Source: Prevotellaceae bacterium (GTDB lineage: Bacteria; Bacteroidota; Bacteroidia; Bacteroidales; UBA932). From it: DNA of 12,415 nucleotides. Shown one piece after another: positions 7,743-11,706 of the stretch; position 1 is the first letter of the stretch, and each line of letters begins with the position of its first letter. Location of the stretch: contig JAITKY010000162.1 of the NCBI GenBank assembly GCA_031278135.1, positions 1 through 12,415 on the forward strand. Reading direction: 5' to 3'. Below the pieces are notes generated by a model, which did not search any database, was not told the origin of the DNA, and saw only the letters and a program-made list of their open reading frames with translations. A program made the translations under genes and the position numbers.

Positions 7743-8184
7743 CTTCTTTTTCCTTTAAAAAGCTTGATAATATTGGAATATATTTTAAAAATTCAATTGC
7801 AAGTAATTCATGTATCATACTGAAAAATTTGTCGTTAGGAAAAATCACCTGTAAATTTTCGACTATCGACAATCCTTCGATGTAAACTATACACCATACT
7901 TCAATCTTTATCACCGAAAGTGTTGCGTCCAATTCGATGCCCATTATCCGGCAAATAAAAAATGTTAATGCCATAATTGAGAGGTACACGCACATTTTAA
8001 CTGCACTCCATCTCAATCTTTTGGATTTCACGCATATCGCGTGTGTTGTTTTCACAGATTTAATGAAACCCGTGACGAAATCGACGGTAAAAAGAATTGC
8101 AACCAATAGCAACAATCCATGTATTGGCTCAAAATACGTCATTCCCAATGTAATGACGAAAACTGCATACTTTACTATATTCAT
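7717..8184 (-). CDS. Phage holin, Holin_4 (PF05105-like)
   Basis: A 155-aa inner-membrane protein with hydrophobic segments around residues 5-36 (two hairpin-like stretches), 66-82 and 90-110. It shows the marks of the toxin-secretion/phage-lysis holin family: an aspartate followed by TGF-K near residues 35-42, a basic SKRLRWSAVK stretch, and EGLSIVEN near residues 103-110. Holins of this family form lesions in the inner membrane that let the endolysin out. The C-terminus is charged. Its ATG overlaps the stop of the preceding gene (TAATG), and its end overlaps the DUF5675 gene. This start is supported by the overlap and by an AGGA inside the repeated end of the upstream gene. Confidence 0.82.
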   Translation of the reverse strand: MNIVKYAVFVITLGMTYFEPIHGLLLLVAILFTVDFVTGFIKSVKTTHAICVKSKRLRWSAVKMCVYLSIMALTFFICRIMGIELDATLSVIKIEVWCIVYIEGLSIVENLQVIFPNDKFFSMIHELLAIEFLKYIPILSSFLKEKEDENREINS

Positions 8185-8573
8185 TATTTATTCCTTTTAT
8201 ATTTATTGCGTTTATAATAATCGAAATTATCTTTATCTGATTGAGTAATCGTGCTTTTAGGGGAGAAAAATTTGAATCCGCAATTATTCCCGTAACGGAC
8301 TATTTTAACAATCGCTCGAAAAGGAAATGTCCGCTTCGAATCACAAACAACATCTTTCAACCGTTTACTTTCAGTAAAAAATGCAGAACGAGACGCTCCT
8401 TCGCCAAATGCTATTAATGTTCGTATCCCGTTTTCTGTTTGAATATCCGTTTTGACGCCCGTAAACACAACTACCTCATTTATAATACAGTCGATACTTG
8501 AATATTCGCAATCAAACAAGTCTTCATTACTGCGTTCAACATCAAAATCATCGAAATCAATTATATCCTTCAT
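8184..8573 (-). CDS. Hypothetical phage protein with acidic N-terminus
   Basis: A 129-aa protein I cannot assign. Residues 1-30 are strongly acidic (IIDFDDFDVE). Residues about 33-105 look like a small beta-rich domain with a central helix (VVVFTGVKTDIQ..., then FPFRAIVKIVRYG and FKFFSP), roughly the layout of a small OB-like or beta-barrel domain, though no motif proves this. The C-terminus ends in a repeated basic pentapeptide YKRNK-YKRNK. It overlaps the gene before it by 4 bases (ATGA) and the holin by 1 base, so it is translationally tied to its neighbours. No membrane segment or signal is present. Confidence 0.75.
   Translation of the reverse strand: MKDIIDFDDFDVERSNEDLFDCEYSSIDCIINEVVVFTGVKTDIQTENGIRTLIAFGEGASRSAFFTESKRLKDVVCDSKRTFPFRAIVKIVRYGNNCGFKFFSPKSTITQSDKDNFDYYKRNKYKRNK
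8187..8216 (-). repeat. 15-bp tandem duplication at the gene end
   Basis: Two adjacent 15-base units (8187-8201 and 8202-8216) match at 13 of 15 positions and encode YKRNK twice at the end of the 129-aa protein. The copy nearest the holin carries AGGA upstream of the holin ATG, where the other copy has different bases. The duplication may therefore have supplied or moved a ribosome binding site. Confidence 0.6.
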
Positions 8574-8992
8574 GAATTATCCGGCACATTATAAGTTTCA
8601 CAATCGTCTTTTATTGAGGCGCGTAAATTTAACCTGTCCTGCAAAAACTCTTCATAAGGAGTTTTATAAGAATCGTCCAACAATCCAAGTTCTGCCGAAC
8701 GATACTCGTTCATTAACTTCGATTCTATCGAAGGAGGATATTTTGCCCCCAGCAAAGTTGCAAAAATATTTGCTCGCGTTTTCGGATATTCAATACGTAT
8801 CGAATCATATTGAAACATTATGCTTGTCTCCTTCGTTTTGCCCGTGACAACGATTATGTTGTCTTTGTCCTTTGTTACATTTACCTCTTTGATGTTGTGA
8901 TTGTACAGAAATGTTCCCTGTCCATTTTTCAAATCAAAGAATACATCCGGTTTACTGTCCGCTAACAGCCCGATTTTTAATACATCTTCCAT
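8570..8992 (-). CDS. Hypothetical phage protein overlapping the RT gene
   Basis: A 140-aa protein of unknown function. The first half (residues 1-75) is beta-like with alternating hydrophobics. The second half (about 75-140) is helical and charged, with YPKTRANIF, YRSAELGLLDDSYK and LRASIKDDCE. It looks like small proteins found beside tail genes in Bacteroides-type prophages and not like the four-helix Avd accessory protein of DGRs. Its ATG (8990-8992) lies inside the end of the RT gene, a 41-base overlap in another frame, and no better start is seen after the RT stop. Its own end overlaps the next gene by 4 bases. A role in tail fibre assembly is possible but not shown. Confidence 0.72.
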   Translation of the reverse strand: MEDVLKIGLLADSKPDVFFDLKNGQGTFLYNHNIKEVNVTKDKDNIIVVTGKTKETSIMFQYDSIRIEYPKTRANIFATLLGAKYPPSIESKLMNEYRSAELGLLDDSYKTPYEEFLQDRLNLRASIKDDCETYNVPDNS

Positions 8993-9992
8993 TGTTTAAA
9001 CATTTATTAAATATATAATTACTATGCTCTTCCGAACACTTGATTATCCATCCGTATTCGGATGCGAACAAGTGTTTTATATCTGTCATATCAGAAATAT
9101 CATGTTTTCTGGCAACAGAATTAAACTTTTTATAGAATCGGCTTAATATGCCTTTCCTAAGTAAAATTCCAAAATGATTTTGCTTAAAGCCCACATAATC
9201 AATTCCCCGTGCATCAACCGGAAAAATCTGCCAATTATGTTTTATTTCCAAATGCAGTTCAGCGCCCAAATAAAGCCCCATCATATCCAAATAATAACGA
9301 AGCGTTTCTTTGCTGTCGTTAAGTATTACCATATCATCCATATAACGGTAATAATATTTGATTTTCAACTCTTCTTTCGCAAAGTGGTCGAAATACGATA
9401 AATACAAATTTGCAAGATATTGACTTGTGAAATTTCCAATCGGTAATCCTTTCGGTTGATGATTGCTGTCTATAATTTTATCCAACAATCGTAACATTTT
9501 TTCATCGGCGATACGATAACGAATTATAGATTTTAAAACATTGTGATTTACATTGTCGTAAAACTTTACAATGTCGATTTTAAGACAATATTTTGTGCCT
9601 TTATTGTCGTTTATTAATGCCCTATGAATATCACCCATACATTTATGTATCCCGCGCCCTTTGACACAAGCATAAGTATTGTTGATAAATATTTTTGTCC
9701 ACATTTCACCCAAAACGTTAATAACACAATGATGAATAATCCTGTCGGGGAAAAACGGAGCAATCATAATCACGCGTTCCTTTGGTTCGTAAATTATTTT
9801 AATACGATATTCGCTTGCTTGATAACTTTCACTTTCCAACATGTCATACAGTTTGAAAAGGTTACTTGTAGTTTCCTTATTAAATTGTTTCACCTCGTTT
9901 CTGTCTTGTTTCCCCCTTTGCGCATTATGCTGCGACCGTAATAAATTATCGGTATCGTAAACTAATGAATAAATATTTTTTAAACGTTTCAT
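8952..9992 (-). CDS. DGR reverse transcriptase
   Basis: A 346-aa reverse transcriptase that copies the template RNA into cDNA with errors at adenines, which is then homed into the VR of the target gene. In order: KIDIVKFYDNV (about 138-148, first catalytic Asp140), GLPIGNFTSQ with the DGR hallmark IGxxxSQ (185-191) where other RTs have QGxxxSP, then YMDD (217-220) with Asp219 and Asp220, and GIDYVGFKQ (about 263-271). The N-terminus starts MKRLKNIYSLV, typical for DGR RTs. I chose the ATG at 9990-9992; the frame runs 7 codons further to a TTG (10011-10013), which is less likely. The gene lies 157 bases after the TR on the same strand and overlaps the next phage gene by 41 bases. There is no maturase, X or endonuclease domain as in group II introns. 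All catalytic residues are intact, so it should be active. Confidence 0.95.
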   Translation of the reverse strand: MKRLKNIYSLVYDTDNLLRSQHNAQRGKQDRNEVKQFNKETTSNLFKLYDMLESESYQASEYRIKIIYEPKERVIMIAPFFPDRIIHHCVINVLGEMWTKIFINNTYACVKGRGIHKCMGDIHRALINDNKGTKYCLKIDIVKFYDNVNHNVLKSIIRYRIADEKMLRLLDKIIDSNHQPKGLPIGNFTSQYLANLYLSYFDHFAKEELKIKYYYRYMDDMVILNDSKETLRYYLDMMGLYLGAELHLEIKHNWQIFPVDARGIDYVGFKQNHFGILLRKGILSRFYKKFNSVARKHDISDMTDIKHLFASEYGWIIKCSEEHSNYIFNKCLNNGRCIKNRAVSGQ

Positions 9993-10035
9993 AACTAATG
10001 TTTTAATTAACAATTATGTGCCGTTGTTAAAACAG

Positions 10036-10059
10036 AGTGTTCAATGACTTACTAACACT
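10036..10059 (-). repeat. Small hairpin between TR and RT
   Basis: A 6-base stem (10036-10041 AGTGTT against 10054-10059 AACACT) with a 12-base loop, between the DGR spacer and the RT start. It may be part of the template RNA or the RT leader. A stem this short can arise by chance. Confidence 0.25.
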
Positions 10060-10081
10060 GTGAAAACACATATTATTTTGC

Positions 10082-10100
10082 CGACTTTGCAGGAAAGTCG
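10082..10100 (-). repeat. Perfect 7-bp hairpin in the DGR spacer
   Basis: A perfect stem, CGACTTT (10082-10088) against AAAGTCG (10094-10100), with a 5-base loop. On the minus strand it lies just downstream of the arm that could pair across the TR (10112-10122). There is no T run after it on the minus strand, so it is not a terminator. A structured spacer after the TR is needed for cDNA priming in the Bordetella phage DGR, so a structural role in the template RNA is plausible. Confidence 0.5.
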
Positions 10101-10111
10101 CTGTGAGGCAA

Positions 10112-10278
10112 GGTTGTAGCGGCTTTAAAATCTTTATTATTAAACAGTAACGGTAAAGGCGAAACCCAATGTTCGCATTCGAGTTCGACGACCGATTATT
10201 CGTATTGAGACAACCGAAACCCGCATTCGTCCCATTATTCGCATTCGCGGACAGCAGGCAACCCCAACCGCTACAACC
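10112..10278. repeat. 11-bp inverted repeat enclosing the TR
   Basis: GGTTGTAGCGG at 10112-10122 is the exact reverse complement of CCGCTACAACC at 10268-10278. One arm sits one base outside the 5' edge of the TR (coding strand) and the other 26 bases past its 3' edge. In the minus-strand RNA these could pair over 11 base pairs and close the TR into a loop. The VR has no such flanks. A chance match of this length within these short flanks is unlikely. Confidence 0.75.
10149..10266 (-). repeat. DGR template repeat (TR)
   Basis: 118 bases that align without gaps to the VR at 10341-10458 (constant offset 192; 108 identical). On the coding strand the TR contains 24 adenines. All 10 differences from the VR fall on these, and none on the other 94 positions. 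Read in the VR frame the TR has 10 AAY (Asn) codons at the sites matching residues 424, 426, 427, 430, 437, 439, 440, 444, 446 and 448. This is the usual DGR design, because AAY can mutate to many residues without giving a stop. A 15-base block (10155-10169) has no mutable adenine and matches the position of the homing-initiation element. The TR lies between target and RT on the same strand. Confidence 0.95.
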
Positions 10279-10308
10279 CTATATTATAATTTCAAATATC
10301 CTTTTTGC

Positions 10309-10333
10309 GCATCGCGTACCGCGTTACGTATGC
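10309..10333. repeat. Interrupted hairpin just after the VR and target stop
   Basis: GCAT (10309-10312) pairs with ATGC (10330-10333), and CGTA (10315-10318) pairs with TACG (10325-10328), with a small internal loop and a 6-base loop. It ends 2 bases from the target stop codon and 7 bases from the VR. In the Bordetella phage DGR a hairpin or cruciform at the same place promotes homing. Here the stem is interrupted, and no T run follows on the minus strand, so it is not a simple terminator. Confidence 0.4.
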
Positions 10334-10335
10334 CG

Positions 10336-11706
10336 TCAAAAACGGCAAAGGCGAAACCCAATGCTCGCATACGAGTGCGACGACCGATTAGTCGTATTGA
10401 GACAACCGAAACCCGCAGTCGTCCCAGTACCCGCATGCGCGGACAGCAGGCAACCCCACCACCCAGTGTTAGAGGCGGAATCATCAATTGCCGTCCAAAA
10501 ATAATCACATGCTCCTGTATTTGCGTTTCCTCCAACTTTTTCGGGAAATGAATATCCTTTTAATGAGTGCGTTAATTGCAAAATATAACCGTCGTTTCGG
10601 GGAATATTAGCAATTGCAACATAACCGTTAGGGATTGTTGTCGCAGCATCGGAATGCGATGTGAATTTTGTTATATCTTCGCAAAGATATATTGTTGATT
10701 TACCTGTATTTGTTGCTGAATCGTTATATGCAAGAACATCATCAGCCAACATCCACAGATATTCAAACGGGGCTTCAAGTCCACGATAGGATGTTAATTG
10801 AACAGTCTTGTCGCCTCCTGTCCACCCTTTAATGACGTACGAGACTTTGCCTGTGTTATTGCCCAAAACAGAAGTAACTCCGCATGGCATGAATGGTCTG
10901 TATCCCGCCCAAGTATTCCATTGACCGCCATCAACAACAGGTCCGCTTCCAAGCCCCCCCTGCCGAAAACCATCAGCGGTAAGTGTTTCCGTATAGGCGC
11001 TTTGACAATTCAACGAGGCATATTCGAGCCTTTGCAACCATGCAATTTCGTTATATACCCGATAAACGCCATGATGAGTTCCATTTTTGCACCATGTGCG
11101 CACTGTCGATTTCGGAATACTTGTGCGGGGCATACCAAGTTGTGAACGATAAGTACCATCATACGAGGCGTCAGAAGTTCCAGCGCCGCCGCGAAATTGT
11201 GCTGCATTGTTTTTGAGTACAATAAACCCGCTTTCGTCTCGCGCCAAATCGTTACCGTTCCAAGTAAGCCAACAACCGGATACGGCTGTACTTGTTGTTG
11301 AATCAACTGTAGCATACCAAGGCGATACTGTTAGTCGCGGCATCTCAATAAAACCCGGAAGAGGGTACTCGCTATATGCCCGTCGCCATTTTGTCCCTTC
11401 GATTTCAAACCGAAAGTAATACTTTGGCTTTTCGAGCATTACATTACCGTCGGTAGAATCAATTAAAGCGGTTGCCCCGCTTTCTTTCAATCGGCTGTCG
11501 TTCTGATGCAGGTAATATTTTACCGAGCCATCGGCGTTTTCGACAAGCCGGCGTAATTTTTTTTGAATCGGGCAGGTACGATGTAAATCCAGATTCCCAA
11601 TTCTCGTAAGGAGATAATCGTTACTCGTAACGTCTCCTTCTATTCCGTACCACATATCGTAAGGGTACTGTGGTTTAGCGCTTCCGCTTGCAAATAATAG
11701 TGCCAT
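10336..11706 (-). CDS. DGR target protein, probable receptor-binding tail protein with C-type lectin fold
   Basis: A 456-aa protein whose last 40 residues are the VR. Features such as SYRGLEAPFEYLWMLADD (about 325-342), the WTAID...WWG region and the end IGFRLCRF resemble DGR variable proteins with the C-type lectin/formylglycine-generating-enzyme-like fold, where the variable residues form a ligand-binding surface. The N-terminal part (about 1-130, with YDMWYGIEGD and LTRIGNLDLHRTCP) probably attaches it to the tail or builds the trunk. No signal peptide or lipobox is seen, which fits a virion protein better than a cell-surface protein. It follows a tail fibre-like gene after 76 bases, with a Bacteroidetes -7 box in the gap, and is followed by TR and RT. 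By analogy to Mtd of Bordetella phage BPP-1 it likely decides host range. The start ATG at 11704-11706 is the only one fitting the promoter. Confidence 0.9.
   Translation of the reverse strand: MALLFASGSAKPQYPYDMWYGIEGDVTSNDYLLTRIGNLDLHRTCPIQKKLRRLVENADGSVKYYLHQNDSRLKESGATALIDSTDGNVMLEKPKYYFRFEIEGTKWRRAYSEYPLPGFIEMPRLTVSPWYATVDSTTSTAVSGCWLTWNGNDLARDESGFIVLKNNAAQFRGGAGTSDASYDGTYRSQLGMPRTSIPKSTVRTWCKNGTHHGVYRVYNEIAWLQRLEYASLNCQSAYTETLTADGFRQGGLGSGPVVDGGQWNTWAGYRPFMPCGVTSVLGNNTGKVSYVIKGWTGGDKTVQLTSYRGLEAPFEYLWMLADDVLAYNDSATNTGKSTIYLCEDITKFTSHSDAATTIPNGYVAIANIPRNDGYILQLTHSLKGYSFPEKVGGNANTGACDYFWTAIDDSASNTGWWGCLLSAHAGTGTTAGFGCLNTTNRSSHSYASIGFRLCRF
10341..10458 (-). repeat. DGR variable repeat (VR)
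   Basis: The VR forms codons 417-456, the very end of the target gene. Compared with the TR it carries 10 substitutions giving nine residue changes: Asn to His424, Gly426, Thr427, Thr430, Thr439, His444, Tyr446 and Ser448, and Tyr to Cys454. Asn437 and Asn440 are unchanged. All changes are at TR adenines. The constant end GFRL, between the changes at 448 and 454, covers the presumed homing-initiation stretch. The number of changes suggests that at least one mutagenic homing event has taken place in this lineage. Confidence 0.95.

Follow-up and report, generated by a model that had tools for sequence, protein, structure and literature searches.

The diversity-generating retroelement (DGR) of phage BPP-1 (NC_005357) comprises a reverse transcriptase (RT), a template repeat (TR) and a variable repeat (VR) at the C-terminus of a lectin-fold tail protein, with a stem-loop after the initiation of mutagenic homing (IMH) site and a spacer before the RT gene (PMC12875486). 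Its folded spacer recruits the RT-Avd complex and a spacer adenine primes the complementary DNA (cDNA); BPP-1 needs Avd, the loss of which brings activity of the model DGR down to about background (PMC12875486). Avd, HRDC and MSL are named as DGR accessories in a study that screens by Pfam (PMC10053308). The order target-TR-RT without avd is also a published architecture, as in crAssphage LMMB, and about a quarter of DGRs are reported to lack any accessory gene (PMC7290462). Here we describe a DGR in a 12,415-nucleotide (nt) stretch of DNA, called the window (contig JAITKY010000162.1 of the Prevotellaceae bacterium assembly GCA_031278135.1), which resembles BPP-1 in its RT, repeats, lectin-fold target, stem-loop and spacer, and for which no Avd was found. 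A gene of 129 amino acids (aa) near the RT encodes a candidate DGR accessory protein, a reading to which we give a probability of about 0.6.

As a DGR the element is ordinary, a further member of a class already well known in Bacteroides phages (PMC6199706, PMC8143477, PMC8144416). It shares with the crAss-like DGRs without avd (PMC7290462) the target-VR-TR-RT order, the IMH/IMH* pair and the absence of avd, and its RT is ~41% identical to theirs. The DGR of phage Versailles (ON453897) and that of a near-identical prophage in Bacteroides acidifaciens DSM 15896 have the same order as the window, target-TR-RT-140 aa-129 aa, with RT 68%, target 73% and accessory protein 63% identical between Versailles and the window. 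The two differ in the N-terminal extension of the Versailles RT (annotated at 395 aa), which the window RT lacks, and in the order of the tail genes around the DGR. On the minus strand the window runs from the end of a structural open reading frame (ORF) through target, VR, TR, spacer and RT to the 140-aa and 129-aa genes:

10336..11706, minus strand: DGR target gene, a 456-aa tail protein; open ORF with the VR at its C-terminal end
10341..10458, minus strand: VR, target codons 417-455; 92% identical to the TR, with differences at TR adenines only
10331..10347, minus strand: stem-loop TGCCGT-TTTTG-ACGGCA at the VR 3' end; absent after the TR
10149..10266, minus strand: TR, with ten AAY codons in the target frame
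10017..10118, minus strand: RT-17-like spacer RNA in the TR-RT interval; sub-threshold Rfam RF03020 match, covariation and model R1
8952..10013, minus strand: DGR RT, 353 aa from TTG, or 346 aa if it starts at ATG 9992
8570..8992, minus strand: 140-aa phage gene (phrog_11557), overlapping the RT 3' end by 41 nt
8184..8573, minus strand: candidate DGR accessory protein of 129 aa; phrog_29953 E 2.1e-54, phrog_19665 E 2.2e-6

The 129-aa gene and its linkage to the RT

The bAvd model PF22296, which finds BPP-1 at E 2e-37, has no match in the window's own genome (G000, 74% complete), in three host genomes with the same DGR type (G016, G046 and G011, 95-99% complete) or in the whole 58-kb phage Versailles. 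PF05635 is likewise without a match in G000, G016 and Versailles, and is the weaker test because it misses BPP-1 too. In the B. acidifaciens genome carrying locus L019, bAvd gives two borderline matches, and in the genome of L020 PF05635 gives one; these overlap none of the DGR loci L019, L020 and L040 in the pairs compared (L152 and L153 with L019, L154 with L020, L152 and L154 with L040). The Avd that a BPP-1-type DGR has in its cassette or genome was thus found in neither, the window itself being one contig.

The 129-aa protein belongs by profile match to the phrog_29953/phrog_19665 family, and this family is linked to DGR RTs. Viral contigs gave nothing when scanned with the single 129-aa sequence and 42 loci when queried with an alignment: the RT lies 439-502 nt upstream in 41 of them, and the remaining locus ends 425 nt upstream. 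A further group of phage contigs is more distant (targets 35-38% identical); there an ORF of 113 aa lies between VR and TR, and that of L100 matches phrog_19665 (E 2.9e-31). A scan with this 113-aa family kept 80 of 170 loci, 76 with an RT and four ending within 403 nt after the gene; the loci of the several viral scans come partly from the same contigs. Among 299 genomes of the host family, the 113-aa profile matched five, with an RT adjoining or fused in all five. It has no match in the window's own genome, so the 129-aa type is invisible to it unaided. The homology of the 129-aa and 113-aa forms rests on bridging sequences (L312, L313, L322, L325 and L334, which match both family profiles at E 6e-9 to 1e-15), because direct alignment of the two extreme families with hhalign is weak alone (probability 20, E 0.0011).

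Homologs occupy three positions: downstream of the RT, between VR and TR, or at the C-terminus of the RT ORF itself. The fused form was found in six ORFs, which make up two groups of similar sequences (L047/L048 and L269/L270/L272/L273). The fusion, and the placement of the 113-aa homolog where avd stands in BPP-1, fit the role of an RT partner.

The intervening 140-aa gene was itself tried as a DGR accessory and rejected. It is kept in RT-less relatives, including a homolog (47% identical) directly after the target in an RT-less Porphyromonas phage; being present with or without an RT, it is not part of the DGR. In Porphyromonas phage 005b (L150, 9371-9375), the gap between target and 140-aa gene is 3 nt, without TR, spacer, RT or accessory gene, an empty-site arrangement.

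Seventy-five loci anchored on this gene carry RT and accessory gene together in 63 cases, the RT only in five, the accessory gene only in one and neither in six. Seven loci (L278, L316, L329, L340, L342, L282 and L344, which are all five RT-only loci, the accessory-only locus and one of the six with neither) were set aside because each ends before the expected place of the missing gene. In the complete neighbourhoods the accessory gene is present in 63/63 with an RT and in 0/5 without (L294, L295, L321, L327 and L328, some of them near-copies of one another). The Fisher P value is 9.6e-8 without the seven loci and 1.5e-5 with them (63/5/1/6), neither of which is a true probability because the rows are related. 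On a tree of the 140-aa gene with 69 rows (seven without both genes), RT and accessory gene each change four times and agree in 69/69 rows; this tree omits the seven loci set aside, L308 and L005, and adds L088, L150 and the window.

These counts bear on the view that, beside a real DGR, the 129-aa gene has an ordinary phage function, for instance in lysis, DNA binding or tail assembly, and only by chance travels with the DGR-bearing members of this phage group. The gene does lie beyond a phage gene and adjoins the holin, and the related loci are not independent. Against this view stand the three placements of the homologs around the RT, the six RT fusions, the lack of the gene both in the five complete RT-less neighbourhoods and in the Porphyromonas phages, and its agreement with the RT across the whole tree. 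We therefore consider it rather unlikely, and favour the 129-aa gene as the candidate for the missing helper, since its relatives keep, lose or fuse it together with the RT.

The 129-aa protein is linked to a DGR RT as Avd, HRDC and MSL are (PMC10053308), and differs from them in having no Pfam match at E 0.01; the Pfam matches of its 113-aa relatives are scattered, all above 0.006 and to unrelated families, with bAvd not among them. Against solved structures its best match has E 0.3, and no relative was found. A possible oligonucleotide-binding (OB)-like topology was considered from the sequence pattern only. An earlier description of the family was not found in the literature search, including the accessible portions of PMC10053308, PMC10907252, PMC7290462, PMC12386605 and PMC11054128; subscription literature lay outside the search and may hold one. 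This small family, which tracks the RT and has no Pfam model, looks new as a candidate accessory.

Some members of the family have unusual forms. In two loci of the distant group (L096, 5404-5850; L108, 5425-5783), a stop or frame change breaks up the 113-aa ORF. Amber suppression is reported in Zeta crAss-like phages (PMC12386605). The 129-aa homolog of L061 (7259-7665) is split into two overlapping ORFs beside a DGR that looks intact. The contig IMGVR_UViG_2940244548_000002 (114,945 bases; L007 and L054/L159/L197) holds two DGRs of different sub-type ~55 kb apart, both with an RT and a 129-aa-type accessory gene.

The TR-RT spacer RNA

The spacer of the window weakly matches Rfam RF03020 (RT-17), a family that lies directly 5' of an RT gene, as the spacer does here, at 33.7 bits (E 0.0025). 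Seven of the 26 sources searched reach the gathering score of 40.4, all of them related DGR loci: L007 (one of eight searched) and L011, L022, L047, L049, L051 and L124 (six of 18 searched). Nineteen aligned spacers share a fold made up of a hairpin P1, an upper stem of P1 and a second stem P2. The P1 pairing is UGCC/GGCA in seven spacers and UACC/GGUA in 12, and 9/16 pairs have changed on both sides, giving 36 such cells compared with 10.4 in shuffles (0/500). Slid structures fail this test. Single-sequence RNA folding of the TR-to-RT stretch gave no signal (z +1.0), and the signal comes from covariation only.

Among 45 sources whose RT is of DGR type, a model built from the 19-spacer alignment, R1, matches 24, on the same strand as the RT and at E < 0.01 in 15 of them. 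The training set included the window and L008, and L020, L040 and L005 are near-identical to training members. Matches end from 31 nt inside to 104 nt before the estimated first residue of the RT. None of 13 other sources was matched, seven having no RT in the locus and six a group II or retron-like RT. With 24 DGR sources matched, 21 missed and no others hit, the RT-17-like RNA is, on the sequence evidence, the spacer of one broad part of DGRs. The covarying TR-RT spacer RNA related to RT-17 looks new; papers linking RT-17 to DGR spacers were not found in the literature searches made.

Repeats, reverse transcriptase and phage context

A sequence-only reading of this DNA had placed a complete, apparently active DGR at 8952..11706 in the tail region of a Bacteroidales phage. 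The DGR is there, but the interval stops short of the gene at 8184-8573, and the spacer RNA went unmentioned. Target, TR and RT are intact on one strand as described, with both ORFs open and the repeats paired. The reported count of TR/VR differences was also recovered: ten mismatches over 118 nt, at 10/24 TR adenines and 0/94 other bases (hypergeometric P = 2e-8). Eight of the TR's ten AAY codons read differently in the VR. Adenine mutagenesis probably accounts for nine of the ten mismatches. The last mismatch (TR position 113, VR base 10346, codon 454, TAC -> TGC) is probably a fixed IMH*/IMH difference instead, because the same contrast of TACCGT in the TR with TGCCGT in the VR recurs in every complete 3' end of the window-type group (22 of 23 distinct ends, window included; L060 is incomplete), and C454 is invariant across a 16-row target alignment. 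The fairer count, without this position, is 9/23 adenines and 0/94 other bases (P = 1e-7). No remote second VR was found in the binned genome (74% complete), where the TR query has four matches only: the TR, the VR and two 18-nt stretches at E 0.46.

The VR lies at the C-terminus of a lectin-fold target, as in other DGRs; the structure prediction reached a predicted local distance difference test score (pLDDT) of 93.1 with 81 diverse rows, compared with a useless 35 from 16 close rows. IMH (TGCCGTT in the VR) differs from IMH* (TACCGTT in the TR), and a hairpin follows the VR only, again as in DGRs: the DNA fold of the stem-loop has -8 kcal/mol and z -2.4 over a 36-nt stretch, against z 0.05 for the stretch after the TR. 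By eye, an inverted repeat stands at the matching place in 21/22 complete ends, the exception being L004; it is also not in L006.

The RT carries GLPIGNFTSQ and YMDD, the motifs already noted, in an open ORF, and matches PF00078 (E 6e-18) and phrog_1423 (E 4e-114), with 8ub7 as the closest solved structure by sequence (E 2.9e-37). An RT of another class, with a coincidental repeat beside it, is a highly improbable explanation. Models of retron, group II intron and DRT classes do match, yet the NCBIfam matches fall far under their curated cut-offs (best 112 of 300 bits; the PADLOC table gives no cut-offs), the motif has SQ instead of SP, and the TR/VR differences are confined to adenines. A quick tree also groups the window RT with BPP-1 and 39 related RTs, and a branch with SH-aLRT (approximate likelihood-ratio test) support of 99 divides them from the RTs of retron-like and group II type, so the RT does not group outside the DGR clade, the result that the sequence-only reading had named as refuting it. 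The tree left out L014 and L018 (misframed short translations), places the very long branch of retron-like L148 among the group II RTs, and labels as 'TR/VR seen' a few RTs for which the script found no pair (L009, L022, L034 and L124). A retron or group II intron RT is accordingly rejected on cut-offs, motif and tree.

Relatives show the same adenine bias. In 66 non-redundant TR/VR pairs from related loci, found with equal penalties, no adenine preference and no adenine-share filter, 935/1634 TR adenines and 88/5860 other bases differ. Eleven loci gave no pair in the searched range, including the Clostridia-type L023-L031 with the TR after the RT, 13 were too short, and L006 and the two-VR loci L047 and L048 fall under 60% adenine mismatches. 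A first, adenine-favouring search, which kept only pairs with at least 60% adenine mismatches and so dropped L006/L056 (10/21), gave 1033/1792 and 58/6052 in 69 pairs. In L006 (9474-9800) the TR is without several adenines found in relatives, as if the TR itself had been overwritten. In L047 and L048 (757-1418) a single TR is matched by two VR-like repeats; those of L047 terminate short ORFs of 160 and 123 aa, which suggests two small targets for a single DGR.

Where the VRs of close pairs (TR at least 97%, flanks at least 96% identical) are not the same, the changes fall on 12 to 20 TR adenines and 0 to 2 other positions. The cleanest pair, L019 (the B. acidifaciens DSM 15896 prophage) and L040 (phage Versailles, of B. 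caecimuris), has 28 mismatches in 13,890 ungapped positions (BLAST over the same stretch counts 25 mismatches and two gap openings), 19 of them in the 115-nt VR, at 19/23 TR adenines and 0/92 other bases, and nine spread across the other 13,775 nt. A like case is that of the Bacuni phages F1/F4, with 24 single-nucleotide polymorphisms, 18 in the VR, and different hosts (PMC8143477). The different VRs and host species of L019 and L040 fit a host-range change without being proof of one; an effect of the window DGR on host range is an inference. The claim of activity thus holds directly for close relatives, while for this copy, for which no second copy of the phage was found, we infer it by analogy.

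Two RT-less relatives, L081 and L094 (5200-5500), have a VR-like target end with a decayed-looking IMH and stem-loop, and no TR pair was found; judged from the sequence, this state looks like DGR loss. Such relatives, and the single copy of the window's phage, would suit a fossil element in which the VR was diversified once and is now silent. We think this improbable: the ORFs, TR, IMH, stem-loop and spacer RNA all have an intact appearance, 0/94 non-adenine bases differ, and VR turnover is recent in close relatives.

Past the 129-aa gene, the minus strand continues with a holin, a DUF5675 protein, a small ORF that we read as lipoprotein-like, two ORFs, the tape measure gene and one further ORF. 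The PHROG tail protein, tape measure, holin and DUF5675 agree with the tail region reported and extend it to a tail/lysis region, and named relatives (B. acidifaciens, phage Versailles of B. caecimuris, Dysgonomonas and Tannerellaceae) bear out the Bacteroidales assignment. It is nearly certain that this is a target-TR-RT type DGR in the tail/lysis region of a Bacteroidales phage. No near-identical copy of the phage was found: RT relatives are at best ~75% identical, and the closest target protein (P0001, 90% identity) lies on a 2.1-kb contig.

Proposed role of the accessory protein and spacer

In the mechanism that we propose, the TR would be transcribed together with the downstream spacer RNA, whose conserved fold would recruit and position the RT, with the 129-aa protein in place of Avd. 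Copying of the TR by the RT would be error-prone opposite adenines, and retrohoming at the IMH and its stem-loop would put the cDNA in the place of the VR. The tail protein, which may bind a receptor, would then vary at about eight AAY-coded residues of its C-terminal lectin-fold region. The product of the 129-aa gene, the second gene after the RT, would stand in for Avd as an RT partner that helps start or carry cDNA synthesis. We also think it somewhat probable that the family as a whole adds another type of DGR accessory to Avd, HRDC and MSL and that, jointly with an RT-17-type spacer RNA, it takes the place of Avd across a large class of gut/Bacteroidales phage DGRs.

Several findings weigh against this reading. 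The window spacer stays under the Rfam gathering score, and R1 misses 21/45 DGR-RT sources, including BPP-1 and three Clostridia loci. The 129-aa protein is separated from the RT by a phage gene and has no convincing match in solved structures or Pfam, and the direct comparison of the extreme families is weak. The 140-aa gene tree holds three supported independent pairs, all agreeing, which are too few for significance. L006 is a real exception to the adenine rule, with 10/21 mismatches at TR adenines, and no second copy of the window's phage was found.

If the proposal is true, a small, easily missed family without a Pfam model fills the Avd role, and part of the Avd-less class is not accessory-less. 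The RNA-protein start step would be testable with a defined RT, protein and RNA fold, and the link of RT-17 to DGR spacers would give this Rfam family a function.

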